From contig NZ_BMFC01000016.1 of the NCBI RefSeq assembly GCF_014637725.1, positions 1 to 60,247 of the forward strand: DNA of 60,247 nucleotides, read 5' to 3'. The first letter of the stretch is position 1. The number at the start of each line of letters is the position of its first letter. Origin of the DNA: Marivita lacus. GTDB taxonomy: Bacteria; Pseudomonadota; Alphaproteobacteria; Rhodobacterales; Rhodobacteraceae. Positions 1 to 14,642 of the stretch are shown piece by piece. Both the position numbers and the translations under genes were made by a program. The notes under the pieces are model-generated. The model was not told the DNA's origin. It did not search any database and saw nothing but the letters and a program-made list of their open reading frames with translations.

Positions 1-180
1 GCCGACGGCGAACGCCATCGGCGGCAGAGAGAACTTCAATTTGAGGTCGGTGGATGAAATCGGACATAAGGTCGGACTTATCATCGGATCGTAGCCAAAG
101 TCAGACGGCCCTCACCGTAGCCTTACGATTTTTCTGGAGGGGTGTTGATGTGGCGTTGATGTGGCGCGCGAACGCAAGAA
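1..180. other. Left edge, no complete gene
   Basis: I see no complete gene here. The first 22 bases form an imperfect hairpin (GCCGACGGCG / CGCCATCGGC, one mismatch). Bases 59-94 hold three 12-bp blocks each beginning with a TCGGA core. A short frame open from the window edge to about base 109 could be the end of a truncated gene, but nothing identifies it. Confidence 0.3.
144..165 (+). repeat. Tandem 11-bp repeat, left of the tRNA fragment (arm-site-like)
   Basis: GTTGATGTGGC occurs twice head to tail. A matching tandem pair (GTTGACATGGC, GTTGACACGGT) lies at 416-437 on the other side of the tRNA fragment. Tandem direct repeats flanking a tRNA-derived core are typical of arm-type sites bound by the N-terminal domain of tyrosine integrases. 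The assignment is inferred from layout. Confidence 0.45.
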
Positions 181-198
181 GCCTCCCGATTGGGAGGC
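181..198 (-). terminator. Hairpin terminator downstream of the tRNA 3' end
   Basis: A perfect 7-bp stem (GCCTCCC, loop GATT, GGGAGGC) lies 30 bp beyond the CCA end of the tRNA fragment. Read on the minus strand it is followed by a short T-rich stretch (TTCTT), so it fits the natural terminator of the tRNA transcript. Confidence 0.6.
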
Positions 199-228
199 AT
201 TTAAGCTTTTGATTTAGCGTAGTATTTA

Positions 229-275
229 TGGTTGCGGGGACAGGATTTGAACCTGTGACCTTCAGGTTATGAGCC
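229..275 (-). tRNA. 3' fragment of initiator tRNA-fMet(CAU); attachment-site core
   Basis: On the minus strand the sequence runs from the anticodon loop (CTCATAAC) through a perfect T stem-loop (ACAGG-TTCAAAT-CCTGT) to an encoded CCA end. It matches the 3' half of alphaproteobacterial initiator tRNA. Homology stops just 5' of the anticodon loop, so this is not a working gene but the stretch shared by attP and attB. In a tRNA-integrated element such a fragment marks the end opposite the rebuilt complete tRNA. Two T-stem bases appear changed as a compensated pair compared with the usual sequence as I recall it. Confidence 0.8.
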
Positions 276-603
276 CATAATTCAATGATTACAATTGGTT
301 AGGAATATCAACAGCATAGCCGACAAGTCTTTGAATTCACAATATTCCATTCATTAAAATGGCAGACATTCGCAAGTATTAACCCCGACAGATCGCTTCA
401 AAATGACGTACGTCAGTTGACATGGCGTTGACACGGTTGATTATCTAAGGTCTGTGTTCTGCTCCTTCTGGTTAATGGTGTGAACGGTCTTTACAGGACA
501 TTTGAACCGATCTCCGAAAATGCCCGCTACCCCGCCATCGTTGCCGAGCGTACTGAGCGCGGCGTGTTTCTGGCCCGACAGTCTTTGGGAGAATTTGTCG
601 AAC
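276..603. other. Gene-free stretch beside the att core, with right-hand arm-like repeats
   Basis: This AT-richer stretch holds no convincing gene. The recognisable structure is the tandem pair GTTGACATGGC / GTTGACACGGT at 416-437, which matches the pair at 144-165 in pattern and length. Confidence 0.4.
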
Positions 604-1470
604 CTATCTCGTCAAGTGCTCAAGCTCCTCCCAGCTAACCCCTGAAATCTGCGTCCAAAACACCCGCGTCATCCCAGGGAAATTATGGGCGTCGTCAGCG
701 CCTTTCTCCAAGATTGTGCGCACATGACTGCGCACCAGATCGTCGCTCGCCGTCGGCGCACGCATTTCATCAATCAGTCTCGCAAGTGTAGCTAAATGCT
801 TCTTGCGCTGGACAACTAGCGAAGGCCGCCAAAGGCCAGCGGTCTCGATCGTCGCCACACCCATTGGGGAAATTCCTCGGATGCGTCCGTCGAGTTCGTA
901 ACGAAAGTGGTTGATTGGTTCTTCATCCTTGAATGGATGAAAAAGAAGTTCGTGTTCCAGCGCATTTTCTTGCGGCCGAGAGCGCTGGGCCATGTCGCAA
1001 TCGACGGGGAAATAGTTTCTTTTCCAAGTTCGATTGCAGATTTCGCATGAAAGGAGGAAGTTTGCCCAGCTATAGGCGTCCCACCAGTAGCCGGTGCCAA
1101 TTGTTCGAAGCGCCTTTCGATCACTGACATTGGAAGCGTTATCTTGTTCTGTTCCTTGACTTGCCGTATCCAGAACTTGAACCATCGCCTTAGGGCGGAA
1201 ATGGTCGACATCACAATACTGCGTTCCAACCACTCTTATATCGCAATATCCGCAACGCCCATGCTGAGCTTTGGCGAAATCACTCTTAAAGCCCTTCCAG
1301 AGATCAGAGGACTTCCCCATTACTTTCTTGGGAAATTCGATCCGGTCGTCGTCGGTAACAAAGTCGGGCAGCGCAGCCTCGTAGATGCGGCGGACTTCAT
1401 CCCGAACACTATCAAGCGTATCGTCGTTGTCGAAATTGGTGGAATCGGGCCGCTCAGCAAAACGGAACAC
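604..1470 (-). CDS. HNH endonuclease, second component of a Septu-like defence system (PtuB-like)
   Basis: An HNH-family nuclease of 288 residues from the start chosen here. The domain shows CGYC (about residues 73-76), then DVDHFRPK with the active-site histidine near residue 90, then a tryptophan-rich block and a second CxxCNR pair; the paired cysteines should bind structural zinc. The reading frame stays open upstream, but I place the start at GTG 1470: it lies one base after the stop of the upstream gene and 5-6 bases after GGAGGAG, a strong ribosome site inside the upstream gene's end. This implies translational coupling and fixed stoichiometry. Its partner carries a homologous HNH domain. 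Family knowledge: PtuB nucleases act with PtuA ATPases against phage. The function here is inferred. Confidence 0.8.
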   Translation of the reverse strand: MFRFAERPDSTNFDNDDTLDSVRDEVRRIYEAALPDFVTDDDRIEFPKKVMGKSSDLWKGFKSDFAKAQHGRCGYCDIRVVGTQYCDVDHFRPKAMVQVLDTASQGTEQDNASNVSDRKALRTIGTGYWWDAYSWANFLLSCEICNRTWKRNYFPVDCDMAQRSRPQENALEHELLFHPFKDEEPINHFRYELDGRIRGISPMGVATIETAGLWRPSLVVQRKKHLATLARLIDEMRAPTASDDLVRSHVRTILEKGADDAHNFPGMTRVFWTQISGVSWEELEHLTR

Positions 1471-1471
1471 T

Positions 1472-3571
1472 CTACTCCTCCAGACGACCGAAGGCTTGCC
1501 GAAGACGCGCTTGGAGTGTTTCGGCTTCCACTTCAAGCACGTCAGGCGCCGCGAGCCCGCGGCGTGCTACATCGGCAAGAGTTTGGCGCTCACCCTCGCT
1601 CGCGGCAAAACCTCGCAACCGATCGCGTAGATCCTGACTTAGCTTTTCCATTTGCACCCTTTCGTGCTCAGGAAGGATTGCGTCCCCTCTTACTTTGAGC
1701 GCGTCCTCTCTCAATGAAAGCACGCTCAGTTCGTTTATCATGTCCTCGGTTTCTTCGTCATAGGTCGTGCCGAGACCGAACCAACCGCCAGTGAGCAGAT
1801 CGTCGACATCCATCCCTGGGAGTATGCTCAATGCTGTCGCTTCGATCTCCTCGCTTGCGGGATTCAGACGGAAAACATAGCTCTCGTCAGGTGCGAGGCC
1901 CCGCAGGCACAGAGGGTCGTGAGTGGTGATCACGAACCGTACGCGCGGGAAGAGTTCGCGCAACTTGGTCACGATCCGCTTCTTCCACAACGGATGCAAA
2001 TGCAGCTCGAGCTCGTCTAGAAGCACTGTGCCCTCTGCCTCGGACATGACAGGTGTATCAATGGCAAGATGCTTCATAATATGCGTAGTGAGCCCAATGA
2101 CTGTTCGAAAGCCGTCGGACATTTGATCGAGACTCTGCCTTGAGCCATTACGCTGGAAGAATATCTCACCATTTCGACGCGAGACTTTTGTGGTGACCGG
2201 TAGACCCATCAATACCTTGAGATTTCGCCCGAGCACTCTGAAATCGCGAGCTGAGACAAGATTTGTGTCGGCGAGCCAACTTTCGGCATCCGCAAGAGGC
2301 AGCACCGGATCAAAAAGGTTGTCGACTGCTCCCGAAGTACTCAGTGCGCGCGCCGCGCCTTTCGTTCTTGAGATACGGCTGGCACCGAGCGCAATCACTG
2401 GAACGCGAACCTCTGCGCCAGAAAACTCGAAATCCGGTGAATTTCTCCGGAAAGTTACTCGCCGCTTGCGTCCATCACTGAGCTTGATCTCAACATAACC
2501 CATGCGATTGCGAGAATTACGGTTATGGATGCGGCCGGCATCAGGAACAAGTTTTTTGGCGGTTGTGGCATCAACGAGCGCCAGTACCACCGCTTTAAGA
2601 AAAGTCGATTTTCCGACCCCGTTTTCGCCAACGATGCCGAGCCAAGGTTCGAGCCCGGAGTGAAAATCCGGGAACGCCAAACGGAGCTGGCTGATCGGAC
2701 CAAAGTCACGCAGCTGGACTGACTCAATCCAAGTCGTCTCAAATTCTTCTGGCACTGCAATCGCTGCGTGTGTAGCCTGCTCCTTTTTTGCACGCTGGCT
2801 ATGTGAACGCCTATTTCGCCCAGCTCCTAAACGTGTCGTCTCACGAACCGAATCGAGCACCAATGCGTGTTGAGGTTGGAGGTGGTTCAGGCTGCTTTTG
2901 ATTTGGTTTAGGGTATCGACATCACCTGATGTTTCCGCCTTGCTCAGTATGCGAACGATCTGAAGATAGTGACGGTATAACTGCTTGCGATTTGAGACCA
3001 GCTCGGTTCGGTTGAGTTGATATACCTCGACCGTAGTCTTTCCGCGCTCGGTTTTTGCGATGAATATACCATCTTCCATTAGCGTGAGGTGTTCGGCAGG
3101 GTCGTCGATGAAAGGGTTAAGAAGTAGGGCACCTTCAGCTTCGAGTTTGGCGCCTCGGCTTTCCTCGGCGGCGCGTTCGCCTTTGATCGGGAAAAGACTG
3201 GCCTTGTAGCGATTGCAGATTGGGCAGAGTAGTTGAAGGTTATCCCAATCGTAGGTTAGCCACCAATAGTGGCGAGGCGAGCTACGGTCTTTTCGTGCAT
3301 TGCCTGCATTGAACTTGGGGCGGAAATGCTCCAGGTCGCCATCCGATACACCAGTCACCGGCGAACCGCAGGTATGGCAGGCTCCCTCCGAACACGCTGC
3401 GAAGATCTGCCTAATCTCTTTGTTTCGTCGAAGGAGACGCCTTCGGAAAAAACGACTTGTGAGCCCAAGCCCCGAAGGGTCCTCATCTATCAGGTGGCGT
3501 AACTCAGCCTCTCCTTTGCTGGCAAACTCTTGCCACCAATCAGGCGGTTCGGGGCGGACAAGCCTACGCAT
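1472..3571 (-). CDS. HNH-AAA (SMC/RecF-like) ATPase fusion, Septu PtuA-like
   Basis: A 699-residue protein with two parts. Residues about 60-130 form an HNH nuclease (CHTC at 65-68, LEHFRPK with H82, CPICNR at 116-121). Residues about 280-600 form an ABC/RecF-type ATPase: Walker A GENGVGKS at 315-322, a signature-like stretch LDQMSDG at 481-487, Walker B LLDE at 517-520 and an H-loop TTHDP at 549-553. This is the composition of Septu (PtuA ATPase plus PtuB HNH), but with a nuclease fused to the N-terminus of the ATPase while a separate HNH gene follows. A GAGAGGAC ribosome site precedes the ATG. The position between an att site and the integrase is a usual place for defence cargo. Anti-phage action is inferred from family and context. 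Confidence 0.8.
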   Translation of the reverse strand: MRRLVRPEPPDWWQEFASKGEAELRHLIDEDPSGLGLTSRFFRRRLLRRNKEIRQIFAACSEGACHTCGSPVTGVSDGDLEHFRPKFNAGNARKDRSSPRHYWWLTYDWDNLQLLCPICNRYKASLFPIKGERAAEESRGAKLEAEGALLLNPFIDDPAEHLTLMEDGIFIAKTERGKTTVEVYQLNRTELVSNRKQLYRHYLQIVRILSKAETSGDVDTLNQIKSSLNHLQPQHALVLDSVRETTRLGAGRNRRSHSQRAKKEQATHAAIAVPEEFETTWIESVQLRDFGPISQLRLAFPDFHSGLEPWLGIVGENGVGKSTFLKAVVLALVDATTAKKLVPDAGRIHNRNSRNRMGYVEIKLSDGRKRRVTFRRNSPDFEFSGAEVRVPVIALGASRISRTKGAARALSTSGAVDNLFDPVLPLADAESWLADTNLVSARDFRVLGRNLKVLMGLPVTTKVSRRNGEIFFQRNGSRQSLDQMSDGFRTVIGLTTHIMKHLAIDTPVMSEAEGTVLLDELELHLHPLWKKRIVTKLRELFPRVRFVITTHDPLCLRGLAPDESYVFRLNPASEEIEATALSILPGMDVDDLLTGGWFGLGTTYDEETEDMINELSVLSLREDALKVRGDAILPEHERVQMEKLSQDLRDRLRGFAASEGERQTLADVARRGLAAPDVLEVEAETLQARLRQAFGRLEE

Positions 3572-3975
3572 AATTCAGTCCTCTCAAAGGGCTAAGCAGA
3601 AGCACAAGTTTGGCTCTTGATCATCGCTCATTCAAAAGCCGTCAGCGTTGTTACGAAACACCGCATCGTTGAAAATACTTATTACTCAATCTTTCCGGTA
3701 TTGAAAGCGTCCGGCAAGTTCATGACTTGTTGAGAGGGGCGGGCGATGCACCGACTTTGCTCAAGTTGTATGCAACAAAGTTAATTGATCGACGCTCGAA
3801 ACCGAGGCTCTGCACTTTGTGGAAATTCGTGATTTGCTCAACAAATCCCTTCACGGCGGAGTTTGGTCGGACGCTGCGCGGGACACGAATGTCGTGGAAG
3901 AGCTGGCAGCGATCATTAGCCGCGTTCGCTGCGAATGGCGAGAGTTGGCCGACAGCGGCCCCAACATCGTGCTCA
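3572..3975. other. Intergenic region upstream of the nuclease operon
   Basis: It holds the promoter side of the HNH-AAA operon (right to left), with no clear gene apart from the possible gene remnant listed separately at 3789-3998. Confidence 0.3.
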
Positions 3976-3998
3976 TCACACATCCTCCCGCCATTTAA
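3789..3998 (+). pseudogene. Possible C-terminal remnant of an unknown gene
   Basis: The frame from just after a TGA at 3786 to a TAA at 3996 reads as natural-looking protein (it contains VEIRDLLNKSLHGG and VEELAAIISRVRCEW), but it has no ATG and no upstream part. It converges tail to tail with the large minus-strand gene and overlaps it by 23 bases. It could be the surviving end of a gene lost when the nuclease operon arrived. I do not recognise a family. Confidence 0.25.
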
Positions 3999-6060
3999 GT
4001 GCAGTCGCTTGCAACCAGCTGGGCAGGAGCGGCTTGAGGGTTGGTGTGAGATCCTCGGTAGCGGCGCCGCGGATCATGTCGACGACTTGCTTGTCATCAC
4101 GGCTTATGGATCGTTTTGGCCATGCGCCCTTTACGCCATCGACAGCTTGCGCAAATCCCTCGGCCCATGCCTGAAACTGCTTAGTGGGAAGGTCTCGCAG
4201 ATCGCTGCCGATTTCACCAAGGAGGACGGCTTCGTTCAGCGCACCGAATCTCACCATGATGATGTCCAAAATGCGCTGGATGGACCCCTGTCCCTTCACC
4301 TCGACCCCCTGCATCAGCGGCATGAGCCATGCGTTTGGTGACATGAATTCCGGGGCGATCAGAACGGCGGTCAAATACCCGTCAATCTGATCTGGCTTGA
4401 GCTGACTGCCCTTGAGCAACTTGGCCAGTTCACCTTTTTGCTCCGGCGCGATCGCTGCCGGTCCAACCTCTTCGTCGTCCCAGGCACCTTCGGCTTCGAG
4501 GTCTTCCATCGCGCGCTCCGCCGCGACGAAGAGCGTATGCTCGAGAATATCCTCGAACACGGGTATCTTCTTGGTTTCCCGTCCAGAGTCGATCGCTTGT
4601 GCGACAGCGGCAAAGCTCAACCAGGCATCAGGTGCCGCGGTGCTGTCATGACTCAGGATCAGCGCGGAGCGGGCAAAGAGTTTTGCCCAGAATTCACGCT
4701 TTATCTCAAGGTGCCCTGCTACAATTTTCTTGGCAGACGCTTCCGTCCGAGCTTGTTCCAGCGCGGCCATCAAACTTGCATCGGACATAAACCAGCTGCT
4801 CGTGATGTCATACTCGGAGAACCAGTCCCGACTCTTGCCAATCAACCGGCTGCGGCGATTGGCCGACAGCGCAGCAAGCTCTCCGAGGGGATCAATCGCG
4901 GCCAGCATAGCGTCATGCGCACCAGATTGTGGCGTCACGTCGCTCACGCCGAACATTGGCGCGACATCCAGAAACCCCGGTGCCGTCACCCTACCCCGCT
5001 CTAGCCCATCTCCAAGCGCGACTCCAAAGGCGCAGGCGAGATAGGACGGTGACACATCATACATCGCCATGGCGTGTTCGATCTGTTCAACCATCATTTT
5101 TTGATCATTTCTGCTGGCACAGGGGATGACATACGCATCCTTGATCCCGTGCCCGGCCTTGATCATGACCGCGGCCACGGCGCGTGTGTTACCGCGGCTG
5201 CAGATGCCGATAATACTTTGTGAACCGGTCCCATCAGGAAGAGACGTCATCACCCGATGAAGCTGCCAGGGTTGCGGAACAGTGCCCCCAGAGGGCTCCC
5301 GTCGCAGCACAGTATTGATCAGTTTATCCAGCGCCCGCCCATTCGGGATCCAGTTACGAACCCGGATGAAATCGGACAACAAAGCCGCGTCTATCTTGGC
5401 ATGTTCCACCAGAAGTTCGAATCCCCTGATGGCCGCGTCGCGCATCTCGGCCACAGGATCGAGCAGAAAATACCGCCCCACCGTACTCATGCGCGGAGCG
5501 CCCTGACCAATCATCTGAGTCAGGATTGTCGTTGTCACCTCAGACTGCATGGCGCCGAGCATCTCTCTGAGCCCGGTATACATTTCAAAGGGTGTCGAAC
5601 CATCTGGAACCAGCTCGTCCACAAGCTCCCCGACATCCGGCAGTTCAACGGGTTCACCTGTCGCAAATACATCCACAAAGGCATCTGTTGCGCTGCGCAA
5701 CTGATCGGGAGGCGTCAGCCCAGCACGGAGGTAAGCCTGAGAAATTCCAAAGCAGTTTCCAGCATCAAGCTCATCTGCATCAGCGCGTTCTACCAATCCC
5801 GCGGCCAGCACCTCAAAAAAATCAGCCGCCCCGCGCTCGTCATTTTCAATATTCATACGTGCCTCGTCCAAGACGCGTGATAGCAGAATAAGGCAATCGT
5901 CGGCGCATCCGGACTCGTCTGCTGAGAGCGCATCGACAAGGCCCAGAACAGCGTCAGCATCATTCGACAGCGGTAAAGCCCACCGATTTACCCAAAGCAA
6001 CGTGCTTCTCTGGTTATCCGTCGTCGGACGGTCCATCAGACAGGCCTCGATCATTTCCAT
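3976..6060 (-). CDS. Large protein with C-terminal UPF0149 (YecA/YgfB-like) segment
   Basis: About 694 residues with no signal peptide. Only the C-terminal quarter is recognisable: a stretch reading LKPDQIDGYLTAVLIAPEF and on to NAWLMPLMQG matches the UPF0149/YecA pattern of a small helical domain. The first 550 residues are mostly helical and could be a repeat scaffold, but I recognise no catalytic motif. The frame extends through two GTG codons; I chose ATG 6060 because AAAGG sits about 8 bases upstream. It is the third gene of a minus-strand run after a WYL regulator and a DinB polymerase, 82 bp after dinB, so it may be co-transcribed with them. Function unknown. Confidence 0.6.
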   Translation of the reverse strand: MEMIEACLMDRPTTDNQRSTLLWVNRWALPLSNDADAVLGLVDALSADESGCADDCLILLSRVLDEARMNIENDERGAADFFEVLAAGLVERADADELDAGNCFGISQAYLRAGLTPPDQLRSATDAFVDVFATGEPVELPDVGELVDELVPDGSTPFEMYTGLREMLGAMQSEVTTTILTQMIGQGAPRMSTVGRYFLLDPVAEMRDAAIRGFELLVEHAKIDAALLSDFIRVRNWIPNGRALDKLINTVLRREPSGGTVPQPWQLHRVMTSLPDGTGSQSIIGICSRGNTRAVAAVMIKAGHGIKDAYVIPCASRNDQKMMVEQIEHAMAMYDVSPSYLACAFGVALGDGLERGRVTAPGFLDVAPMFGVSDVTPQSGAHDAMLAAIDPLGELAALSANRRSRLIGKSRDWFSEYDITSSWFMSDASLMAALEQARTEASAKKIVAGHLEIKREFWAKLFARSALILSHDSTAAPDAWLSFAAVAQAIDSGRETKKIPVFEDILEHTLFVAAERAMEDLEAEGAWDDEEVGPAAIAPEQKGELAKLLKGSQLKPDQIDGYLTAVLIAPEFMSPNAWLMPLMQGVEVKGQGSIQRILDIIMVRFGALNEAVLLGEIGSDLRDLPTKQFQAWAEGFAQAVDGVKGAWPKRSISRDDKQVVDMIRGAATEDLTPTLKPLLPSWLQATALKWREDV

Positions 6061-6142
6061 CACCACCTTTTACAACCCAGCGCCTCTATTTCCCGGGCCT
6101 CCTTTTTATGAACAGCGATGTGCCTGTCCACCCGAATCCACT

Positions 6143-7549
6143 TCAAAAGGACAGGAAGTGCGTATCCTCGTCCGCTGTTGCCGCCTCGCTGAAATCAGCC
6201 TCGTCCGGGATGCGACCAAAGGCAATCTTCGCCCCGACATAGCCACCGAAGACCTCGTCTTGCACGCCCAGGGATAAGGCCTTGGCACCGTGTGATTTGC
6301 GAAGAGTGTCCATCAGGTCACTGACCGTCTCCCATTTTTCTCGCGAGGCGGTGTCTGACCCGGCCTCCAGTGTGCCGCCAAAAAGGTCACCTGTGATCTC
6401 CGCATCGGAGACCACTCCGTGTATCGTCACGCTGACTGCTTGCGGCGAGAAGCGCAGCGTCCGGCGGGCCTCATGAAGCCCCTCCGACAGAGCGCGCATG
6501 AAGGTACGGTCGTCCCGAGCTGCCGGGAATGTATCGCGCCAATTCCATCGACCATCCTCGGCACCCCGTCCGCCCCGAAACCCCAGGGTCAGCTCCGTCG
6601 CTCGCAGGTTGTCTCTTCGCAGTCGGCGGGTGGCACTCAGCAGAAGTTGGCGGGCACAGGGTTCCACCTTGTCAGGCGTGCGGGAGTCTCGGGGCAGCAC
6701 ACGGCCATGGCCGTACATGCTTTTCTTGGTTTCGGGTCGCTCGGCGTGGATGCCGTGGAGTTCATTCCAGAATCGTTCGCCTTCGACATTACCCCAGATT
6801 TTCCGCGCCTGTTTCGGTGCCAGCCGCCACAAAGCGTCAATGTCCTCTACTCCCGCGGCCGCAAGGCGCGCGCCAATGCCTTTCGAGATGCCGGGCAGAT
6901 CCCGGAGGTCAAGATGTGACAGGCACCCCGGGAGGTCCTCTGCCCTGATCAGGACAAACCCGTCTGGCTTGTTAATTTCAGCACCAATCTTGGCGAGCAA
7001 CTCGGTTGGGGCCATGCCGATGGAGCATGTCAGCGCTGGGCTGAACGCACCTGCTAGTGCGGTCTTGATGCGATCCGCAAGTGATTTTCCTTGCGCCGCC
7101 TCGCTCGGCGTCAAATGGCAGACAACCTCGTCGATGGACCGAACGCGCTCGACCGGTAAGATGGTGCCGATGACGGCAAGGATGCGTTTGTGCAACCGGA
7201 CATACGCGTCATGCCGTGCGATCACGAACACCATGTCGGGGATTACTTGGCGGGCAGCACGGATCGTCGCTCCAGACTTCACACCGCGCGCCTTGGCTTC
7301 GCGGCTGACTGCGATGCAACTGGTATGCGGCGAGTCCAGTGGTACGACGCCAAGGGGCCGGCCGCGCAGCTCTGCGTTGAAGTGCTGTTCGGCCGACGCA
7401 AAGAAACTGTCGAAATCGAGATAGAGCCGTTCGATCTTCGGCGTCGCATCGTTCATGGATGTGTCCTGTGTCGACATCTCGCCCGCCCTGCCATCGCATG
7501 CGGCGCCAATGTCATCGGAGCTCAAATTATTCGACGTGTCGCTGGTCAT
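6143..7549 (-). CDS. dinB: Y-family translesion DNA polymerase (DinB/Pol IV)
   Basis: About 468 residues. The catalytic palm is clear: LYLDFDSFFAS near the N-terminus carries the first metal-binding aspartate and steric-gate region, and RSIDEV carries the second acidic pair. These are followed by the DLPGI helix-hairpin-helix and a little-finger domain. A longer frame exists upstream, but ATG 7549 forms a 4-base ATGA overlap with the stop of the WYL gene, so I take it as the start. This leaves an unconserved N-terminal lead of about 30 residues before the polymerase core. No beta-clamp-binding motif is obvious at the C-terminus. The likely role is bypass of damaged template; placement in an element suggests mutagenic or damage-tolerant replication. 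Confidence 0.85.
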   Translation of the reverse strand: MTSDTSNNLSSDDIGAACDGRAGEMSTQDTSMNDATPKIERLYLDFDSFFASAEQHFNAELRGRPLGVVPLDSPHTSCIAVSREAKARGVKSGATIRAARQVIPDMVFVIARHDAYVRLHKRILAVIGTILPVERVRSIDEVVCHLTPSEAAQGKSLADRIKTALAGAFSPALTCSIGMAPTELLAKIGAEINKPDGFVLIRAEDLPGCLSHLDLRDLPGISKGIGARLAAAGVEDIDALWRLAPKQARKIWGNVEGERFWNELHGIHAERPETKKSMYGHGRVLPRDSRTPDKVEPCARQLLLSATRRLRRDNLRATELTLGFRGGRGAEDGRWNWRDTFPAARDDRTFMRALSEGLHEARRTLRFSPQAVSVTIHGVVSDAEITGDLFGGTLEAGSDTASREKWETVSDLMDTLRKSHGAKALSLGVQDEVFGGYVGAKIAFGRIPDEADFSEAATADEDTHFLSF

Positions 7550-8538
7550 GGCCGCACTTTGATTGGCGAGGTGCGATAGGCGGACACCATATCGCGCAGA
7601 GCAGCGGGCTCTATGACGTCTACCGCATCTCCCCACTTGGCCAGGTGCCACGCCATTTCAACGAGACCGCTGGCGTCAAAAATGACAAGAAGTGACCCAT
7701 CGCCTTGGTCGATCAATTCTTGCTTGGGATGAAACTCAAACTCGCGCGCAGCCGCCGCTGCAGCCGCTGAAAATCGCCACACGATCCGCGTGAACTCTGC
7801 ATCGGAATGGAAGGAGCTGAAAGACTGTTCCGCATAGGTCCGCAAGTCGAAGTCGTTGTCCTTTTCAAACCACTGGACGGTGATTTCCACATCGGACATG
7901 CGATCCAAGCGGAAGCGACGAAACCGGTCATCTTTCGCGATATCCCGCCCAATCAAGTAGTGGCGCGTGCCAAACAACAGGCCATAAGGCTCGATGATAC
8001 GATGTTTCGGTTCAGGGTCTCGTTCACCTTGATACATCAGCGTCAGTCGATAGGGCCCTCTGATCGCCCCAGCAATATTTTTCAACATTCCCTCGGAGGT
8101 CTTCACCCGGGGACCTGGCCTGCACGCATAACCGCGCGCCTCCAGAAGTGTCTCAGCATCGACCTCTGCGCGGCGCGCATGGATAGGCGGCAAGGTCGCC
8201 ATCAGGCGATCGCGCAGCCCACATAAAGCGTCCTTTTCGGACTGCGCCCCCTCCCGCTCTGCCCGCCGAATACTCATTTCCAGCGCAACAAGTTCATGAT
8301 CGTAAAGACCCGGCATCCCAAGCTTGCTGGTCTCGCGCACCTTCCATCTTCGCCGCCGGTCGCTGTCTGTCATATGCGATACGGTTGGAAACACATCTTT
8401 CAGAGCTTGGACCATGCGCTGGGCGGTTCGTTCGTTGACAGAGAATTCCTTTGCGATCTCCTGCACGCTGATACCTCGGTGCCGGCTGGCCGCCATGCTG
8501 GCAAGCTTCAGCAAGTCCTTTGCTTTCTGAAACGACAT
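7546..8538 (-). CDS. WYL-domain transcriptional regulator
   Basis: About 330 residues. The N-terminus carries a DeoR-like winged helix (ISVQEIAKEFSVNERTAQRM). The middle and C-terminus carry a WYL-type domain with the conserved run YRLTLMY ... EPYGLLFGTRHYLIG and a WCX-like tail. The longer frame is trimmed to ATG 8538, where the helix-turn-helix begins cleanly. WYL proteins usually sense a nucleic-acid ligand and often control defence or DNA-damage genes. Its stop overlaps the dinB start (ATGA), so the two are translationally coupled; the simplest reading is that it controls this operon in response to damage or invasion. It is divergent from the plus-strand gene at 8757. Confidence 0.8.
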   Translation of the reverse strand: MSFQKAKDLLKLASMAASRHRGISVQEIAKEFSVNERTAQRMVQALKDVFPTVSHMTDSDRRRRWKVRETSKLGMPGLYDHELVALEMSIRRAEREGAQSEKDALCGLRDRLMATLPPIHARRAEVDAETLLEARGYACRPGPRVKTSEGMLKNIAGAIRGPYRLTLMYQGERDPEPKHRIIEPYGLLFGTRHYLIGRDIAKDDRFRRFRLDRMSDVEITVQWFEKDNDFDLRTYAEQSFSSFHSDAEFTRIVWRFSAAAAAAAREFEFHPKQELIDQGDGSLLVIFDASGLVEMAWHLAKWGDAVDVIEPAALRDMVSAYRTSPIKVRP

Positions 8539-8756
8539 AAGCGCACAACCCCGACAGTTTCTGACGTAGTGGCTGCGGTATAGTCGATATGAGGGCGATT
8601 CGCCGAACACAGAGTTCGATCAATGCCGTAACGCAGGTCACCCCTGCACCGGGCAACCGATCAAGTCTTGCCGTTTTGTCCCTCAAAGCTGCCCGCACGG
8701 CGCGCAACAGGCGTCTCGTGCGTGACCATGTAAACGCAAAAGGAGACTGGGCGTAT

Positions 8757-9353
8757 ATGGCACTACCACCACGAGCGTTCTTCACCCTGCACGAAACCGC
8801 GTCGCGATGGGGCTGCACCATCGCCGACATTGGCGGTTGGGCCAGCGAAGGCAAGCTGGAGATCGTCACCGGCATTCCCCTGGCCATCTGCGGCACCGAA
8901 ATGGTGTCGGGCAAGATCACCATTTCCCCCATGGACATGCTGCCCTTCTTTCGCCGCAGCGGTACCGGGCCTACTGTGATCAAGCTCCAGCGGATCAAGC
9001 CGGAGGATTTGGGCGAATGGTGCTATGTCACGGATCCCAGCGACGGCGTCGAAGTGTCGATTGCCGATCTGCTGATCAGCGGCAAAGAAGTCCGGCAGTT
9101 TGAAGACGATTACGATCTCCTTCGGCGGATCAGTGGTGGCACTGGTGGCATTTCCCCTTATGACTGGGAGGGGATGTATGTCGCCTTACTCAAACGCGTG
9201 CATGAAAACGGCCTGCCCGAGACCCAGGCGGAACTCATCGCGGAGTTGCAGGACTGGTTCGTTGAAGTCGCGGAGAATGGGGATGTCCCCGATGAGAGCA
9301 CCATCCGTCGTCGCTTGCGCCCATTCTGGCGCGCTTTGCGAGGCAAGACCTGA
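8757..9353 (+). CDS. Conserved-looking hypothetical protein next to the integrase
   Basis: 198 residues from ATG 8757; the frame is open further upstream, but an AGGAG lies about 12 bases before this ATG and homology-like sequence begins here. The N-terminus (FTLHETASRWGCTIADIGGWA) looks like a helix-turn-helix of the excisionase/MerR sort. The C-terminal 60 residues (LPETQAELIAELQDWF ... IRRRLRPFWRAL) resemble the short DNA-binding tails found in many phage and island regulators. It converges on the integrase with an 8-bp gap. A regulator or recombination accessory role is possible, but I do not recognise the family. Confidence 0.55.
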   Translation: MALPPRAFFTLHETASRWGCTIADIGGWASEGKLEIVTGIPLAICGTEMVSGKITISPMDMLPFFRRSGTGPTVIKLQRIKPEDLGEWCYVTDPSDGVEVSIADLLISGKEVRQFEDDYDLLRRISGGTGGISPYDWEGMYVALLKRVHENGLPETQAELIAELQDWFVEVAENGDVPDESTIRRRLRPFWRALRGKT

Positions 9354-9360
9354 GTGTCTT

Positions 9361-10626
9361 TCAGGCACGCTTGGTTTTCGGCTCTGCGTCAGCGTTGTGC
9401 ACGATCTTGGGGCGTGGTCTGACCATGCCCGCCACAGCATCGACACCGGCACGCAACGGCGAGTCCATCAGATGCGCGTACCGCAGAGTGGTTTGCATCT
9501 GACTGTGCCCGAGCAGCTTGCCGATCATTTCCAGCGAGGCTCCACCGCTGACCAGAAGCGATGCGAATGTATGACGCAAATCATGAATCCGAACTCCTGG
9601 CAGGTCTGCCTCTCGCTGGACCATGATCCAGAAGCGGCGGATTTCTTTGACAGGTTGGCCCGGTACATCGCCGGGAAACAGCCACGGATTGCCTCTGGGC
9701 ACACTGCCTGACCGCTGCCGCACGATGGCTGCCACATCCGCCGAAATCGGCACCCTGTGGACTTTACGCTGTTTGGTGGTGGCTGCAGGTTTTGACCAGA
9801 TACCAAGTTCAAGATTGAACTGCTCAAACCGGGCTTGCCGCACCTCACCAACGCGCGCACCCGTCAGCATGCACAACCGGATAATGCTGGCAGCCCGCTG
9901 ATCTTCGGCCGCGTCCAAGACATCCGCAAGCCTCGCAATCTCCTCGTGCGACAAAAAGCGTTCGCGGGCGGTTTCAACGCGTTTCTTGAACCCTTGTGCG
10001 GGATTGTCTGTACGCCAGCCCCATTGGATGGCGAGATTGAACATTTTTCGCAGGACTTCCCCAATCCGATTGGCCCGAACCGGGGTGGGCTTTCTACCCT
10101 GCAAGTTGCGCGCCCGGTTATTGGGCTTTGCCTTGGAAGGCCGGGCCCTGCCCTCTGCGATCAAATTGAGCAGCGAGGCAACATCCTGTGGGGAGATCTC
10201 TGCCACAAGCTTGTTGCCCCAATGTGGCGCCACCAGTTTGGACAGGAAAGATTTGTGATCCGATGCGCTCAGTGGCGTCAGGGTCGACGCATGCTCGGCG
10301 AGATACCGATCGATCAAATCCTTGAACCTTGGTGCCTCGCGCAGTGCTCCCCGTTCGTCAAGCGGATCAGTCCCTGCGTCGATCAGTCGGCGCAATTCGC
10401 GGGCACGGTCTCGAACCGCAGTCACGCTCCATTCCGGCCAACGCCCGATTGTCATTCTGCGTTGCCGCCCCGCAAAACGGTAGTCCAACGCGAAAGATCG
10501 CTCGCCAGAGGGCATCACCCGAATGGAGAGCCCCCGTACATCCGTGTCAAAGATTTGATACGCGCGATCCACGTCGGGCATCAGGTCACGTACCAATTTT
10601 TCGGTCAAGCGCAGTCGGTTCACCAT
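9361..10626 (-). CDS. int: Tyrosine integrase with DUF4102 N-terminal domain
   Basis: About 421 residues. The N-terminal 90 residues are a DUF4102-type arm-binding domain (FDTDVRGLSIRVMPSG ... MTIGRWPEWSV), followed by a SAM-like core-binding domain and a C-terminal catalytic domain. The active-site set is visible: R in LTGARVGEVRQ, HDLRHTFAS, the histidine of LLGHSQMQTT and the nucleophile Y in LRYAHL. I take ATG 10626, preceded by AAGGAG, over the upstream start. This family typically integrates at tRNA 3' ends, which fits the tRNA-fMet fragment at 229-275, although about 9 kb of accessory genes separates the two. Confidence 0.92.
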   Translation of the reverse strand: MVNRLRLTEKLVRDLMPDVDRAYQIFDTDVRGLSIRVMPSGERSFALDYRFAGRQRRMTIGRWPEWSVTAVRDRARELRRLIDAGTDPLDERGALREAPRFKDLIDRYLAEHASTLTPLSASDHKSFLSKLVAPHWGNKLVAEISPQDVASLLNLIAEGRARPSKAKPNNRARNLQGRKPTPVRANRIGEVLRKMFNLAIQWGWRTDNPAQGFKKRVETARERFLSHEEIARLADVLDAAEDQRAASIIRLCMLTGARVGEVRQARFEQFNLELGIWSKPAATTKQRKVHRVPISADVAAIVRQRSGSVPRGNPWLFPGDVPGQPVKEIRRFWIMVQREADLPGVRIHDLRHTFASLLVSGGASLEMIGKLLGHSQMQTTLRYAHLMDSPLRAGVDAVAGMVRPRPKIVHNADAEPKTKRA

Positions 10627-10902
10627 GTTCACAGCTCCTTCCGCCTGGGACACAGGCGTAGATATTCAGAGGTATCAAGCGGATCATGCGCGACAGACCG
10701 GCGTCTAGGCAGCGACCGGCAGCGAAATGCTAAAAGCCTGCCGATCATTGAAATTATTGAACAAAATGCGTTCGCTGATGCCTGAACTGCAGTCAGCTGA
10801 ATAAAAATCCGGCCGACGATCGTCGCCAAAAAGCGATGATTGGACGGCTCAACCGGCCAATCCATCCATTAGGCGGCTCGAAATCTGTAAATTTCGTTTA
10901 AA

Positions 10903-10938
10903 ATCAATGACCGGCAAGGGGTCTGACCCCTTGCCGGT
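10903..10938. repeat. 12-bp perfect hairpin with repeat ATCAATGACCGGCAAGGG
   Basis: ACCGGCAAGGGG and CCCCTTGCCGGT pair perfectly around a 5-base loop at 10910-10938. The 18 bp starting at 10903 recur at 11105-11122, where the second arm is absent. There is no T-tract, so it is not a typical terminator; an operator or transcription barrier is as likely. Confidence 0.5.
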
Positions 10939-11104
10939 TTGGCCAATCCGTTTCAATATCAGTCAATCACCTGAAAACACGCTGAATTCTTGTAAATCGA
11001 GGGCGGATTAGCGCTTCATGATCGGCGCAGAGTGATTTTCCGAGCCTCAAATTCTTGGCGCACAATGAGTCACGCCTGAACAGAAAGCCGAAAAGCTCAA
11101 TGAT

Positions 11105-11122
11105 ATCAATGACCGGCAAGGG
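11105..11122 (+). repeat. Second copy of the 18-bp control-region repeat
   Basis: An exact copy of the 18 bases at 10903-10920, located 105 bp before the first early gene. The spacing suggests a shared regulator site for the two divergent transcripts. Confidence 0.45.
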
Positions 11123-11226
11123 TTTGGCGTTTCGCCGCCGGTCGCTGCCTTCCCGCCACCCCTTTCTGTCTGCGTTTCTGACGTCCTGACCTGCGCCCGT
11201 GTTGGGCGCCGAACAGGAGAAATCAG

Positions 11227-11472
11227 ATGACAGAAACCATGACGTCCCCTGGACCCAGCAAACTGCGCGTGCTGAGCGGCTGGATCAGCCGTCTCGACCT
11301 CGCGCTGGAACTTGATGTCACCGTGGAGACCCTGCATCGCTGGGAAAAGCTGCGGTTTGGACCGCCTTGTGTCCGGGCCGGCCGGAAAATCTATTATCGC
11401 CGCGACGCTGTGCAGGAGTGGCTCTTACAGCAGGAAGCATCGCCTTCTCATGCGCGGAGGGCCCGCCGATGA
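11227..11472 (+). CDS. Excisionase-like / MerR-type helix-turn-helix protein
   Basis: 81 residues. A single winged-helix domain (LDLALELDVTVETLHRWEKL ... IYYRRDAVQEWLLQQ) of the type seen in excisionases and small phage activators. It is the first gene of a five-gene overlapping early operon; an AGGAG lies 7 bases before the ATG. It may assist excision with the divergent integrase or control early transcription. The domain call is fairly firm, the exact role is not. Confidence 0.7.
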   Translation: MTETMTSPGPSKLRVLSGWISRLDLALELDVTVETLHRWEKLRFGPPCVRAGRKIYYRRDAVQEWLLQQEASPSHARRARR

Positions 11473-11753
11473 GCCTTCCCCTGCCCTTCCGTGCGCAAAG
11501 CCGCCGCCGGCGCGGCGCGCGCGATGACAGCCGCCAGGACTGGATCGACGAGCGCCTACGCGAGGCCCGCATCGTGGTGGCCGATGTGGTGCACCATTCC
11601 GACCACATGGTCCGGCTGGCCTGCAATGTGCTGGTCCAGCATGGCCAGACGCCCGAGGAGCGCGAGGATGCCCGCATCCTGCTGGTCGTTCTGGGTGGTA
11701 AAGCCCATGGCCGGGGCCGCCCTGCCTGGGCCGATCCGGAGGACCGGCGATGA
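11469..11753 (+). CDS. Small phage early protein, unknown function
   Basis: 94 residues, starting at ATG 11469 in an ATGA overlap with the preceding stop. It is arginine-rich at the N-terminus and then forms a helical segment (WIDERLREARIVVADVVHHS). The frame is open further upstream, but the overlap and neighbouring pattern support this start. I recognise no family. Its place between an excisionase-like protein and a nuclease suggests a role in replication or recombination. Confidence 0.55.
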   Translation: MSLPLPFRAQSRRRRGARDDSRQDWIDERLREARIVVADVVHHSDHMVRLACNVLVQHGQTPEEREDARILLVVLGGKAHGRGRPAWADPEDRR

Positions 11754-12187
11754 AGACGCGCGGAACACCGGAGGCGGACCTGCAGCGCGCTGTGGTCAGC
11801 GCCTTGCGGGTCGTCCTGCCCAAGGGGGCGATTGTGCATCATAGCGCCAACGAGGTTGCGCAGGCCGGGCCTCGGGGCGCCAAGCGCCAGGCCATCCTGA
11901 CCGGCATGGGGGTGCATCCCGGCTTTGCCGATCTGGTGGTGCTGTGTGATGGCCGTGTGCTGTTTCTCGAGCTCAAATCCCGCAAGGGGCAGCTGAGCCC
12001 GGCGCAGCAGGCGTTTCGCGACGCGGTGCAGGCGCAAGGGTTTGGCTGGGCACTGGTGCGCTCCTTGGATGACGCGCTGGGCGCACTGGCGGATCACGGG
12101 CTCACCACACGGGTGGTCGGCGCTGTCGGCAGCCCGGCGCTGGGCGTCTCCGGGTCTCGACCTTGTTCCGGGAGGGCGTCGTCATGA
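11750..12187 (+). CDS. VRR-NUC domain nuclease
   Basis: 145 residues. It matches the PD-(D/E)xK fold of VRR-NUC proteins: an N-terminal helix, then HPGFADLVVL with the catalytic aspartate, then LFLELKSRKGQLSPAQQ with the E-x-K pair and the usual SPAQ motif. Stand-alone VRR-NUC proteins are common in phage replication modules, where they are thought to process DNA junctions or ends. It overlaps both neighbours by 4 bases, indicating a single translationally coupled operon. Confidence 0.82.
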   Translation: MKTRGTPEADLQRAVVSALRVVLPKGAIVHHSANEVAQAGPRGAKRQAILTGMGVHPGFADLVVLCDGRVLFLELKSRKGQLSPAQQAFRDAVQAQGFGWALVRSLDDALGALADHGLTTRVVGAVGSPALGVSGSRPCSGRASS

Positions 12188-13233
12188 GCCACGCCGCCAC
12201 CAATTGGGCGATCCAGCAGCGCGGGCTGAAGCCCACAACGAAGATTGTCCTCTGGCATCTGTGCGATCGCTACAATCCCGACTTTGGGTGTTTCCCAACG
12301 CAGGAGCGCTTGGCCCTGGATTGCGAGATCGGCCGCGCCACGCTGAACCGGCATCTCGACGATCTTGAGGCCCGTGGTCTGATCCGCCGAGTGCCGATCA
12401 TCGACACGAAAACCGGCCAGCAGCGCCCGACCCGGTATCTGCTCGGCTTCGAGTTCACCGGCCTGACCAAGGGCACGCCAGGTCCTGTTGGCGGGGCCGA
12501 AACCCCGTCACATCCACCTGCAGCGCCGCTAGAAACCCCGTGTCTCGATTTGGGACACGGGACTACAGGCGACACCGCCATGCAGTGCACGGGTGTACAG
12601 CCTCCCACCCCGGCTCCGCCGTGTCTCGAACCGGGACACGGGCCCGTGTCTCATTTTGGCGCAAACCCGTGTCTCAAAAATGGCGATTCCCGTGTCTCAA
12701 AATGGGACACTAACCCTGTAAGGGAACCTTTAAGTAAACCAGTAAAGGAGGAGGAGGGCGCGCAGGCGCGCGCGAGTATCGGTGACGATTTTTTTTGCGC
12801 GCTGCTCACGGCGCTGGGCTTCGATCCCAGCGGCGCCCTGCCCGGCTGGTGGCAAGGCTGGCCGCCCCAGGAACACGTCCGGCGCTGGCAGATCGAACTT
12901 GGTCTGACCGAGGCGCAGGTCGTTGCGGCGGCAGCGGCCTCTCGGGACATCCACCCTGCCCCGCCGGATGGGCCCAAGGCGCTGGACCGCGTCATGCAGC
13001 GTGCAGCCCGGCGCAAGGCGGAGGCTGCAGGTACACCCCGACGGGTCTCGGCAAAGGCCGTCACCGCGTGCACGGCCAAGCCGCCCAGCGCCGATCCACC
13101 CGCCTTCTACGCCGATTGGGTCAACTCGGACCGCTACCTGCCCTCGAACGCCATCACCAACGCCATGCGCGATCAGATGCTGAACCGCGGCCTCGTCACC
13201 ACCCAGCGCCTGCGCGAAAGGAACATCCAGTGA
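12184..13233 (+). CDS. Replication-initiator-like helix-turn-helix protein with internal iterons
   Basis: 349 residues from ATG 12184 (ATGA overlap; the track start 21 bases earlier is less likely). Residues about 1-75 are a winged HTH of the HTH_36 type (TKIVLWHLCDRYN ... FPTQERLALDCEIGRATLNRHL). A long proline-rich, low-complexity linker follows, then a C-terminal helical part. The linker is encoded by DNA carrying five GTGTCTC repeats (see 12538-12710), so its odd composition follows from the DNA element. This mirrors lambda O, where the origin iterons lie inside the initiator gene. I infer an initiator role, with the HTH or another part binding the iterons. Confidence 0.7.
   Translation: MSHAATNWAIQQRGLKPTTKIVLWHLCDRYNPDFGCFPTQERLALDCEIGRATLNRHLDDLEARGLIRRVPIIDTKTGQQRPTRYLLGFEFTGLTKGTPGPVGGAETPSHPPAAPLETPCLDLGHGTTGDTAMQCTGVQPPTPAPPCLEPGHGPVSHFGANPCLKNGDSRVSKWDTNPVREPLSKPVKEEEGAQARASIGDDFFCALLTALGFDPSGALPGWWQGWPPQEHVRRWQIELGLTEAQVVAAAAASRDIHPAPPDGPKALDRVMQRAARRKAEAAGTPRRVSAKAVTACTAKPPSADPPAFYADWVNSDRYLPSNAITNAMRDQMLNRGLVTTQRLRERNIQ
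12538..12710 (+). repeat. Iteron array within the initiator-like gene; candidate phage origin
   Basis: CCGTGTCTC occurs at 12538, 12619, 12644, 12667 and 12690; the last four are spaced 25, 23 and 23 bp. Copies 1 and 2 are palindromic (CCGTGTC ... GACACGG, 23 bp) and copy 5 nearly so. The array is followed at 12713-12748 by a locally A/T-richer stretch. Evenly spaced iterons plus an AT-rich flank inside an initiator gene are the layout of a theta origin such as lambda ori. Confidence 0.65.
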
Positions 13234-13892
13234 AACACGATCAAAGCCTGCACGGCCGCTCCGGCGCAGGCGCCCGCGCCAAGCGCAGCTTGAGCATCCA
13301 GCAGGCCCTTGAATGGACCTTCCGGGTTGAGCAAGCCCAGCTCGAACTGCCTGAGCCTGAGACCGATGATGGGGAACCCCGCAGCTTCGGATTGGAACAC
13401 GTGCTGGCGCAGCGCGCCGTCCTTGGCACCGCTGTCGACGGCGGGCGCTACAAGTTGGGCAGCTACACCCATCCCGACGCCGAGGTCATCGCTGCGATTG
13501 TCGCGGGGCTCCCCGACAGTCACGGCGGCAAGCGCATGGCCATTCGTGTGGCAGAGCTCGCCCGCGCTGGGATGACGCCAGACTGGATGCGAGGGGCCGT
13601 GCCGCGCTGTGTGCCGCAGGACGTCCGTGAAAACCAGCATGGACCAAAAGCTGTCACAATCGTTGTTGGCACCGAGCGTGTCTGGTCCCGCGGAAAATGG
13701 CGAACCGTTGAGGTCCTGGCGTGCCCCGTCATGTGGCGGCCCTATCCAGAGCAGATCAATGCCGCGCGACGCGCGTATCACGACTGGTGGCAGGCGCTGG
13801 AGTACTTGCGTGACGGACTGCAGGCCGTGGGGTTGCTGCGAGAGGTTGAGGTTACAGGCGTGATGCCGAAATGTCGGCCATGGGGGAAGTGA
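13230..13892 (+). CDS. Phage early protein, unknown function
   Basis: About 220 residues. It starts at GTG 13230 in a GTGA overlap with the initiator-like gene and is the last gene of the early operon. The C-terminal half contains a basic, tryptophan-rich stretch (MWRPYPEQINAARRAYHDWW). I see no Walker motif or helicase feature, so it is not a DnaC or DnaB type loader. Position after an initiator suggests a replication accessory. Unrecognised. Confidence 0.6.
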   Translation: MKHDQSLHGRSGAGARAKRSLSIQQALEWTFRVEQAQLELPEPETDDGEPRSFGLEHVLAQRAVLGTAVDGGRYKLGSYTHPDAEVIAAIVAGLPDSHGGKRMAIRVAELARAGMTPDWMRGAVPRCVPQDVRENQHGPKAVTIVVGTERVWSRGKWRTVEVLACPVMWRPYPEQINAARRAYHDWWQALEYLRDGLQAVGLLREVEVTGVMPKCRPWGK

Positions 13893-14642
13893 GCGCAGTA
13901 ATTGGGAAAACTCGATCAAGTTGATCAATGATGGCTTACGATATTCGATAAAATTGCCCACTCCAGTTCGATTGTCGCCCCGGCTATTCACTCGGCACAC
14001 CTTTTTAAAGGCTTGCGAGATGGACCAAGGTCGACATGGGGCGGCGGCAAGTGAGCGCTTTTTTATAGGCGGGTCGGTCCCTGGTTTTTCCGGCAGGAGG
14101 GTGATTTTCTCATGTCGCCTTGCTGCCGCATTGCACCCACGAGACTAATTCCTCACAATAATTGTACACCAGAGTCTATATAAATCGACCGAAAACTTCG
14201 CACAGGTCAGCTGACTAGAGTATGAATCAACCCAAAGAACAGCGTTGCGTATAGGAGCATCATTCCAGCTACCAAAACCTTGCTCATTCATGCCTCCACG
14301 CCACGTATTATGAGAACAGCCTAGAAGCACGCTCGTTCCATCATCAATACCACTTTAGTGTTAAAAATTGAGGTGATAGGTTTTATTTCGACGCGTCCTC
14401 GTTGAACGTGCAAACAGACACGAGCTACCGCCGGAGCTGTTCAAAAAGCAGCCACCCAAACTTTCAGACTGTAACAATTTGCGGACATTGCATTGGAAAA
14501 ACAAAGCGGTAATTTGCAGATGCGCAATCTATAGAAAAAATCTTTCACATTCAATAAATCTATCAATTTTACTAATTCCCAGTCACTCCCTATCTCCCAC
14601 GAGGCAGCGCCAGATGGCGCCACGACTTGAAGGAGACCCGCT
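13893..14642. other. AT-rich junction between early phage genes and cargo
   Basis: 750 bp with base composition clearly poorer in G+C than either side. It contains an imperfect long inverted repeat (GCGGCGGCAAG near 14041, CTTGCTGCCGC near 14119). A 61-codon minus-strand frame at 14145-14330 has no clear ribosome site or family and is not called. This is the likely left edge of the stress cargo. Confidence 0.4.

Follow-up and report, generated by a model that had tools for sequence, protein, structure and literature searches.

A Septu-type gene pair in Marivita lacus with one PtuB-like HNH domain fused to the ATPase and a second encoded by the next gene

A stretch of 60,247 nucleotides from Marivita lacus (contig NZ_BMFC01000016.1), hereafter called the window, carries two adjoining minus-strand genes of the Septu type (Table 1). 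We confirmed the pair at the position where an earlier note on this DNA had described it. The first gene encodes a protein in which an HNH domain precedes a RecF/ABC-type ATPase, and the second gene, coupled to the first, encodes another HNH protein. Thus, one HNH domain lies in cis to the ATPase and one in trans, as that note had proposed. We think it likely that the pair represents a distinct Septu clade: a nearly whole PtuB is fused ahead of PtuA, a second PtuB is the next gene, the fused HNH domain would act mainly as a dock or partner, and the free HNH protein would do the cutting. Domain content, spacing, pairing, the single ATPase branch, the constancy of the free motif, and the losses in the fused motif are read from sequence; from them we infer the mechanism.

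Table 1. Features of the Septu-type pair and its surroundings, in window coordinates
Feature	Position	Strand	Remarks
Fused HNH-ATPase gene	1472–3571	minus	699 amino acids; open reading frame (ORF) 3571–1472; domains from PADLOC and Pfam
Cis HNH (PtuB-like) domain	2852–3571	minus	about residues 1–240; PADLOC PtuB1 (PDLC00339) match at residues 3–231
PtuA ABC-type ATPase region of the fused gene	1616–2809	minus	about residues 255–652; PADLOC, Pfam, invariant alignment columns
Trans HNH gene (PtuB-like)	604–1470	minus	288 amino acids; likely GTG start at 1470; PADLOC PtuB1
Shine-Dalgarno-like GGAGGAG	1475–1481	minus	in the final codons of the fused gene, 4 bases ahead of GTG 1470
tRNA-Met fragment (copy of the final 47 bases of the gene)	229–275	minus	contigs C39 and C40 carry whole tRNA-Met genes whose 3' part is identical
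Tyrosine integrase	9361–10653	minus	Pfam Phage_integrase, E=2e-22

The two genes

The PtuB1 match in the fused protein runs over positions 3–238 of the 261 in the profile. Because PDLC00339 is covered almost end to end, the fused part is a nearly whole PtuB and no fragment. Its HNH motif is complete in the window (C65, C68, H82, N111, C116, C119, N120, and K123), and Pfam HNH (PF01844) matches at E=1.3e-4 with 22.5 bits against a cut-off of 21.4. In the ATPase part, the motifs GENGVGKS (residues 315–322), SDG (485–487), D519 E520, and H551 are intact and occupy invariant alignment columns; we take them to be the Walker A motif, the signature, the Walker B motif, and the His switch, respectively. 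Pfam AAA_21 matches residues 312–554 (E=2e-16), AAA_15 also matches, and SMC_N does so under its cut-off.

By sequence, the fused protein matches 12 distinct PtuA-type chains among solved structures, within residues 462–559 (best E 4.5e-17). Structure models could be built from 6 alignment rows only and reached a mean predicted local distance difference test score (pLDDT) of 48.7 and 37.2. Given these low scores, the fold search was applied to the ATPase only, and we make no claim about domain placement. With the weak model of the fused protein, the best 50 of 157 Foldseek matches (E<=0.001) are all chains of retron I-A, PtuA, or PtuAB, the Escherichia coli Septu included.

The free HNH gene most likely starts at GTG 1470, one base past the TAG of the fused gene; hence the two genes abut without overlapping. 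The longest ORF of this frame (604–1536, 310 amino acids) begins at TTG 1536, which is merely the first start codon of the frame. The earlier note had placed a ribosome site inside the upstream stop, and in substance it was right: GGAGGAG lies in the final codons of the fused gene, except that it ends just ahead of the TAG. In the 288-residue numbering, the free protein carries C73, C76, H90, N137, C142, C145, N146, and K150. Its Pfam HNH match, at 17.3 bits, is under the 21.4 cut-off, and a sequence search of solved structures gave no match at E up to 0.1. A promoter and terminator scan returned about as many sites as shuffled sequence (3 versus 2.0 and 3 versus 4.2). The cis and trans HNH domains of the window are 23% identical, and a single recent duplication as their source is unsupported.

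Relation to known Septu systems and retrons

The pair combines a PtuA-type ABC ATPase, whose Walker A, signature, Walker B, and His switch are all intact, with an adjoining downstream PtuB-type HNH gene that has an intact HNH motif. Its earlier description as Septu-like is borne out by the PADLOC profiles, specifically by a PtuA1 match of the fused protein at E=3.8e-136, which excludes a chance match, and a PtuB1 match of the free HNH protein at E=4.2e-43. The fused protein additionally matches PtuB1 at E=2.9e-42. With Septu type I, the pair shares the gene order A then B, the PtuA1 and PtuB1 matches, and the motifs of both enzymes. The fused form differs from type I in adding the nearly whole PtuB-like domain ahead of PtuA, and the ATPase proteins differ in length: 404–562 amino acids in 19 ordinary Septu pairs versus 690–841 in 42 fusions. 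In the Septu systems studied so far, the ATPase has no built-in nuclease domain, whereas residues 3–231 of the window ATPase protein match PtuB1. A nuclease-free ATPase describes those studied systems and is not something that the PADLOC profiles require.

Type I-A retrons (Ec78/Eco7 and Ec83, with PtuAB effectors) use the same ATPase and HNH families as the window pair. They differ from it in possessing a reverse transcriptase and an msr-msd RNA, neither of which was found beside the pair, and its ATPase bears an HNH domain of its own. No reverse transcriptase lies near the pair, the sole PF00078 match in the genome being on contig C18, and Rfam identified no retron RNA in window positions 1–14000 at E up to 0.1. 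These two results rule out a retron-Septu, in agreement with the earlier note. The NCBIfam models for retron Ec78 score 94 of the required 500 bits (NF041760, PtuA) and 44 of 150 bits (NF041761, PtuB), so far under their cut-offs that the window proteins are relatives outside those equivalogs. A separate observation concerns a Priestia megaterium plasmid (locus L066), in which a gene annotated as a retron St85-family reverse transcriptase (7931–8944) adjoins a fused pair on the opposite strand. It is either a chance neighbor or a retron using the fused form.

A further likeness is the ptuXYZ operon, which combines a PtuA-like ATPase with other toxic domains; where the window pair has PtuB copies, this operon has a DUF262 protein and a PIN-YoeB protein as partners (PMC11980606).

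The fused form is already present in databases. Three PADLOC PtuA1 profiles (PDLC00292, PDLC00288, and PDLC00291) are 726, 733, and 773 positions long. All 21 members of one of our alignments (A1) match each of them at E up to 1e-30, and the free HNH protein matches their N-terminal parts. Thus, these profiles already span the fused form, which suggests that the sequence clusters of the PADLOC makers included it, and the PADLOC profile table gives it no separate type name. The earlier suggestion of a distinct architecture stands as regards a clade of its own. In the searchable literature, which includes neither the paper that introduced Septu nor those on the PtuAB structure and on a survey of retrons, we found no description of the fused form or of its active-site loss; an earlier description may exist in those three papers. 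The window pair is a real, widespread variant of a known Septu system. Tools that label both of its genes plain Septu appear to hide a separate architecture.

Conservation of the pair

We collected 42 intact fusions from four phyla, none picked on the presence of a downstream HNH gene. In all 42, a free HNH gene is the next gene downstream on the same strand. The two genes overlap by exactly 4 bases in 20 of the 42, and the longest-ORF start of the free gene lies between 65 bases before and 31 bases after the upstream stop. Together with the ATPase tree described below, this pairing supports a separate conserved clade of HNH-ATPase plus HNH pairs, a point that the earlier note had put up for checking.

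The 42 comprise the window itself, five from a scan of one set of genome contigs (of 6 loci), 14 from plasmid records, and the remainder from large genome sets. Since 2 or 3 candidates were scored per genome in the large sets, their counts are lower bounds. In the family to which the window belongs, at least 34 of 394 genomes have some match, and at least 12 have a fused gene, the window included and 11 of them new. The scored candidates from 385 genomes of its class contributed no new fusion; 398 genomes of its phylum contributed at least 3 new intact fusions and one shortened one. Among 349 genomes of one Bacteroidota family, at least 7 have fused genes (6 new), and 343 genomes of the phylum of L011, the closest relative of the window, yielded at least 3 (2 new). 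Plasmid records gave 42 matches to the long protein, of which 16 were analyzed and proved to be the 14 intact fusions and 2 split ones. Where hosts are named, they belong to Pseudomonadota and Bacillota for the plasmid records, to Bacteroidota for L012 and L013, and to Planctomycetota for L011. In 16 other genomes of the genus, nothing matched the long protein at E<=0.001.

Several cases stand outside these numbers. A shortened locus (L130) and the two split ones (L063 and L073) were kept out of the 42. In L063 the fused gene is two ORFs, split in the linker, and in L073 it is two overlapping ORFs; both also have a free HNH gene downstream. Matches within very long open frames (1191 amino acids in G588 and 1216 in G811) are likewise uncounted. 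The unfused comparison set represents a minority of the unfused matches from the family, class, and phylum sets.

A phage-borne system was considered and rejected: no fused relative was found among phage records, which gave 1 weak ATPase match, or among viral contigs, which gave no match with the single protein and at least 11 weak ones, all in the ATPase part, in an alignment search.

Two side observations concern the pairs themselves. The Planctomycetaceae genome that is the source of L011 (G1133) harbors two different fused Septu pairs, on contigs C321 and C214. In addition, among the loci searched (up to L142), a gene for a patatin-like phospholipase of 565–603 amino acids adjoins the fused pair in six, downstream at L048, L071, L073, L075, and L077 and upstream at L053. 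Possibly, this phospholipase is a third component in a sub-branch.

Opposite fates of the two active sites

Fused domains, free HNH proteins, and ordinary PtuB proteins were compared in a joint alignment at the residues that we take, from their place in the motif and from what is known of HNH nucleases, to be the catalytic His and Asn. All 42 free copies and all 19 ordinary PtuB proteins have the His, compared with 18 of 42 fused domains; the other 24 have Arg in 17 cases, Gln in 5, and Leu in 2. At the Asn that follows the second CxxC, the pattern is the same (42/42 free, 19/19 ordinary, 14/42 fused), as it is at the motif Lys (42/42, 19/19, and 25/42, respectively). The four Cys of the zinc CxxC pairs and the Asn of the WxN motif are retained in every fused copy and every free copy (42/42 for each). 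Thus, the fused domain has kept its fold and zinc sites throughout, but not its catalytic motif. The full H-N-N-K set survives in 8 of the 42 fused domains, that of the window among them. The ordinary PtuB count omits L060, L062, and L141 (no PtuB ORF by profiles), L056 and L057 (weak matches), L142 (an HNH match in an odd 946-residue ORF), and L016 (an unfused pair).

On an ATPase tree built without the HNH columns, the His state of the fused domain requires at least 7 changes (6 on a smaller set). Over 561 pairs from the first 34 loci, mean pairwise identity is 0.33 for fused domains, 0.40 for free copies, and 0.32 for the ATPase part, and the free identity exceeds the fused in 519 of the 561 pairs. 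Fused HNH domains have therefore diverged more than free ones but not more than the ATPase to which they are joined.

Given the His counts, the free HNH protein is most likely the executioner. The fused domain would be a built-in partner that has become a pseudo-nuclease in many lineages. In the window, the fused motif is complete, and thus the fused site may still cut. For Septu EcB88, mutation of PtuA K43 or D316, or of PtuB H75 or N91, is reported to abolish immunity (PMC13096335).

A single branch of fused ATPases

In a careful ATPase tree, 36 fused rows (34 intact and 2 split) fall on one side of a branch and 20 unfused rows on the other, with support of 99/98 and recovery in 100% of 200 bootstrap trees. 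A quick tree places 44 fused rows (42 intact and 2 split) together, with SH-aLRT 98, against 17 unfused rows. Its rows are those of the first tree with 8 fusions and 4 unfused relatives added and 7 divergent unfused rows (L054, L055, L058, L061, L056, L057, and L060) dropped. The trees are unrooted, and the program warns of long branches among the unfused rows and some fused ones. For this reason, a single origin of the fused ATPases is favored and not proved. The window has a fused gene, a free HNH gene immediately following, and an ATPase within the one branch. Its closest relative, L011, comes from a Planctomycetaceae metagenome-assembled genome and is 46% identical over the long protein.

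The HNH domains give a less tidy picture. Their tree is poorly resolved at its base, where the copies of the window and of L011 are placed. It requires 4 changes for the fused copies and 2 for the free ones, and two fused copies (L043 and L074) fall among the free HNH proteins. A clean split of fused from free HNH copies was thus not obtained. Nor was a precursor found for a fusion arising from a three-gene HNH-ATPase-HNH operon, because the 4 unfused relatives, from the Bacteroidota family, are plain ATPase-HNH pairs.

Proposed mechanism and competing explanations

The notion is that, in an uninfected cell, the ATP-bound PtuA parts would assemble as dimers or higher oligomers and so keep the nuclease inactive, and that infection would release it. 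The free HNH protein would then cut its target. This could be tRNA, the target of retron-Eco7 and Septu EcB88, or else phage DNA, the reported target of a different E. coli Septu. Present once per ATPase subunit, the fused HNH domain would offer the free one a fixed docking site or dimer partner; by its motif, it would be a pseudo-nuclease in over half of the members sampled. EcB88 cuts tRNA-Tyr (PMC13096335), PtuA and PtuB of retron-Eco7 cause growth arrest when co-expressed, and tRNA-Tyr is cut or degraded by retron-Eco7 and EcB88 (PMC13096335, PMC11555353). For a different E. coli Septu, an action on nicked DNA is cited (PMC13096335, PMC11555353). The table of a review gives the PtuA:PtuB ratio of the assembly as 6:2 (PMC12948488). 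Titles of Protein Data Bank (PDB) entries among our fold matches give ratios of 4:2 and 2:1. Reported PtuAB assemblies thus contain more ATPases than nucleases, for which no agreed explanation is known to us. A clade with one HNH domain per ATPase, in which the free HNH is kept and the tied one decays, is a natural experiment on roles of PtuB besides cutting.

A stronger version of this scheme is possible, and we hold it tentatively. The tethered PtuB, having repeatedly lost its active site, would be indispensable to the free PtuB as its partner and switch, the two making up a hetero-HNH unit on every ATPase, and the window would represent an early state in which the tethered copy still cuts.

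Several points weigh against the Septu scheme that we propose. No member of the clade has demonstrated activity, here or in the searchable literature, and the structure models, at the pLDDT values given above, are too weak to reveal a docking surface. A pseudo-nuclease role is not general, since the fused motif is complete in the window and in 7 further members. The WxN Asn, invariant in the 42 fused domains, could mean residual catalysis with another base. The HNH tree does not resolve into two clean clades of fused and free copies, and the free copy of the window groups with that of L011 alone, outside the main free group. The fused ORF of L130 is shortened (model positions 1–510), and no free HNH gene was found within 10 kb of it. 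Finally, the scoring of 2 or 3 candidates per genome limits the large-set searches.

Some of these observations would suit two working nucleases, with both HNH domains cutting, for example one strand or one substrate each, to produce a double cut. Both motifs are complete in the window, the full fused motif recurs in 8 of 42 members, and the zinc Cys and the WxN Asn persist in all 42 fused copies. What speaks against such an arrangement is that 24 of 42 fused copies have lost the His (with a minimum of 7 changes of state on the ATPase tree) and 28 have lost the CxxCN Asn, whereas each of the 42 free copies has both residues. We consider it unlikely; as a general rule, the pair of working nucleases pictured in the earlier note is not supported, intact as both motifs are in the window. 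One His in each of the two proteins can discriminate between the one-blade and two-blade models.

Two simpler explanations fare worse. The locus could be an ordinary Septu type I in which gene order happened to produce a fusion and the fused HNH domain simply supplies part of the PtuB dose, and PADLOC does assign both window proteins to PtuA1 and PtuB1. Yet the single fused-ATPase branch spans four phyla, both copies are kept in 42 of 42 members, and their active sites have met opposite fates, all of which argues for different roles and makes this account improbable. We give very little credence to a repair or housekeeping ATPase that carries a nuclease and belongs to no defense system. Such a protein would fit the broad ABC/RecF/SMC class of the ATPase, to which its AAA_21, AAA_15, and under-cut-off SMC_N matches belong, and a gene for a DinB/UmuC-like polymerase lies nearby (6143–7651). 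It would not fit the patchy spread across the family (at least 34 of 394 genomes with any match, 12 of them fused) and the genus (0 of 16 other genomes), the occurrence on plasmids, or the tRNA-Met fragment and integrase in the vicinity. Moreover, the best profiles and the best listed fold matches (50 of 157) are PtuA systems. The Septu reading, with the fused domain as partner and the free HNH protein as blade, is thus the one that we prefer.

Genomic setting

The locus looks like an island adjoining a tRNA gene. The identity of the tRNA-Met fragment to the genes on C39 and C40 extends into the flanking bases, and 229–275 is probably the attachment site at one island end; ARAGORN detected no whole tRNA in the window. 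The tyrosine integrase probably belongs to the same island as the Septu pair and is not needed for Septu function. The other end of the island was not found: the window holds no second copy of the tRNA-Met fragment, and the contig starts at window base 1. Between fragment and integrase lie the Septu pair, the DinB/UmuC-type polymerase gene, and a gene for a WYL regulator (7546–8610). Adjoining the pair, positions 3976–6066 encode a 696-residue protein with a C-terminal UPF0149 (YecA/YgfB-like) domain; in the other loci searched (up to L142), no ORF is related to it.

Two repeats complete the description of the window. Positions 1 to about 126 recur at 10 further places in the same genome at 98–100% identity, some at contig ends; they represent a multi-copy element that is perhaps the end of an insertion sequence. 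Positions 12538–12713 contain three copies of a 24-base repeat, spaced by 81 and 71 bases, the second and third 88% and 75% like the first. The first two copies are palindrome-like, and all lie inside an open frame with an HTH domain (12163–13233), where the Rfam match is sub-threshold only.

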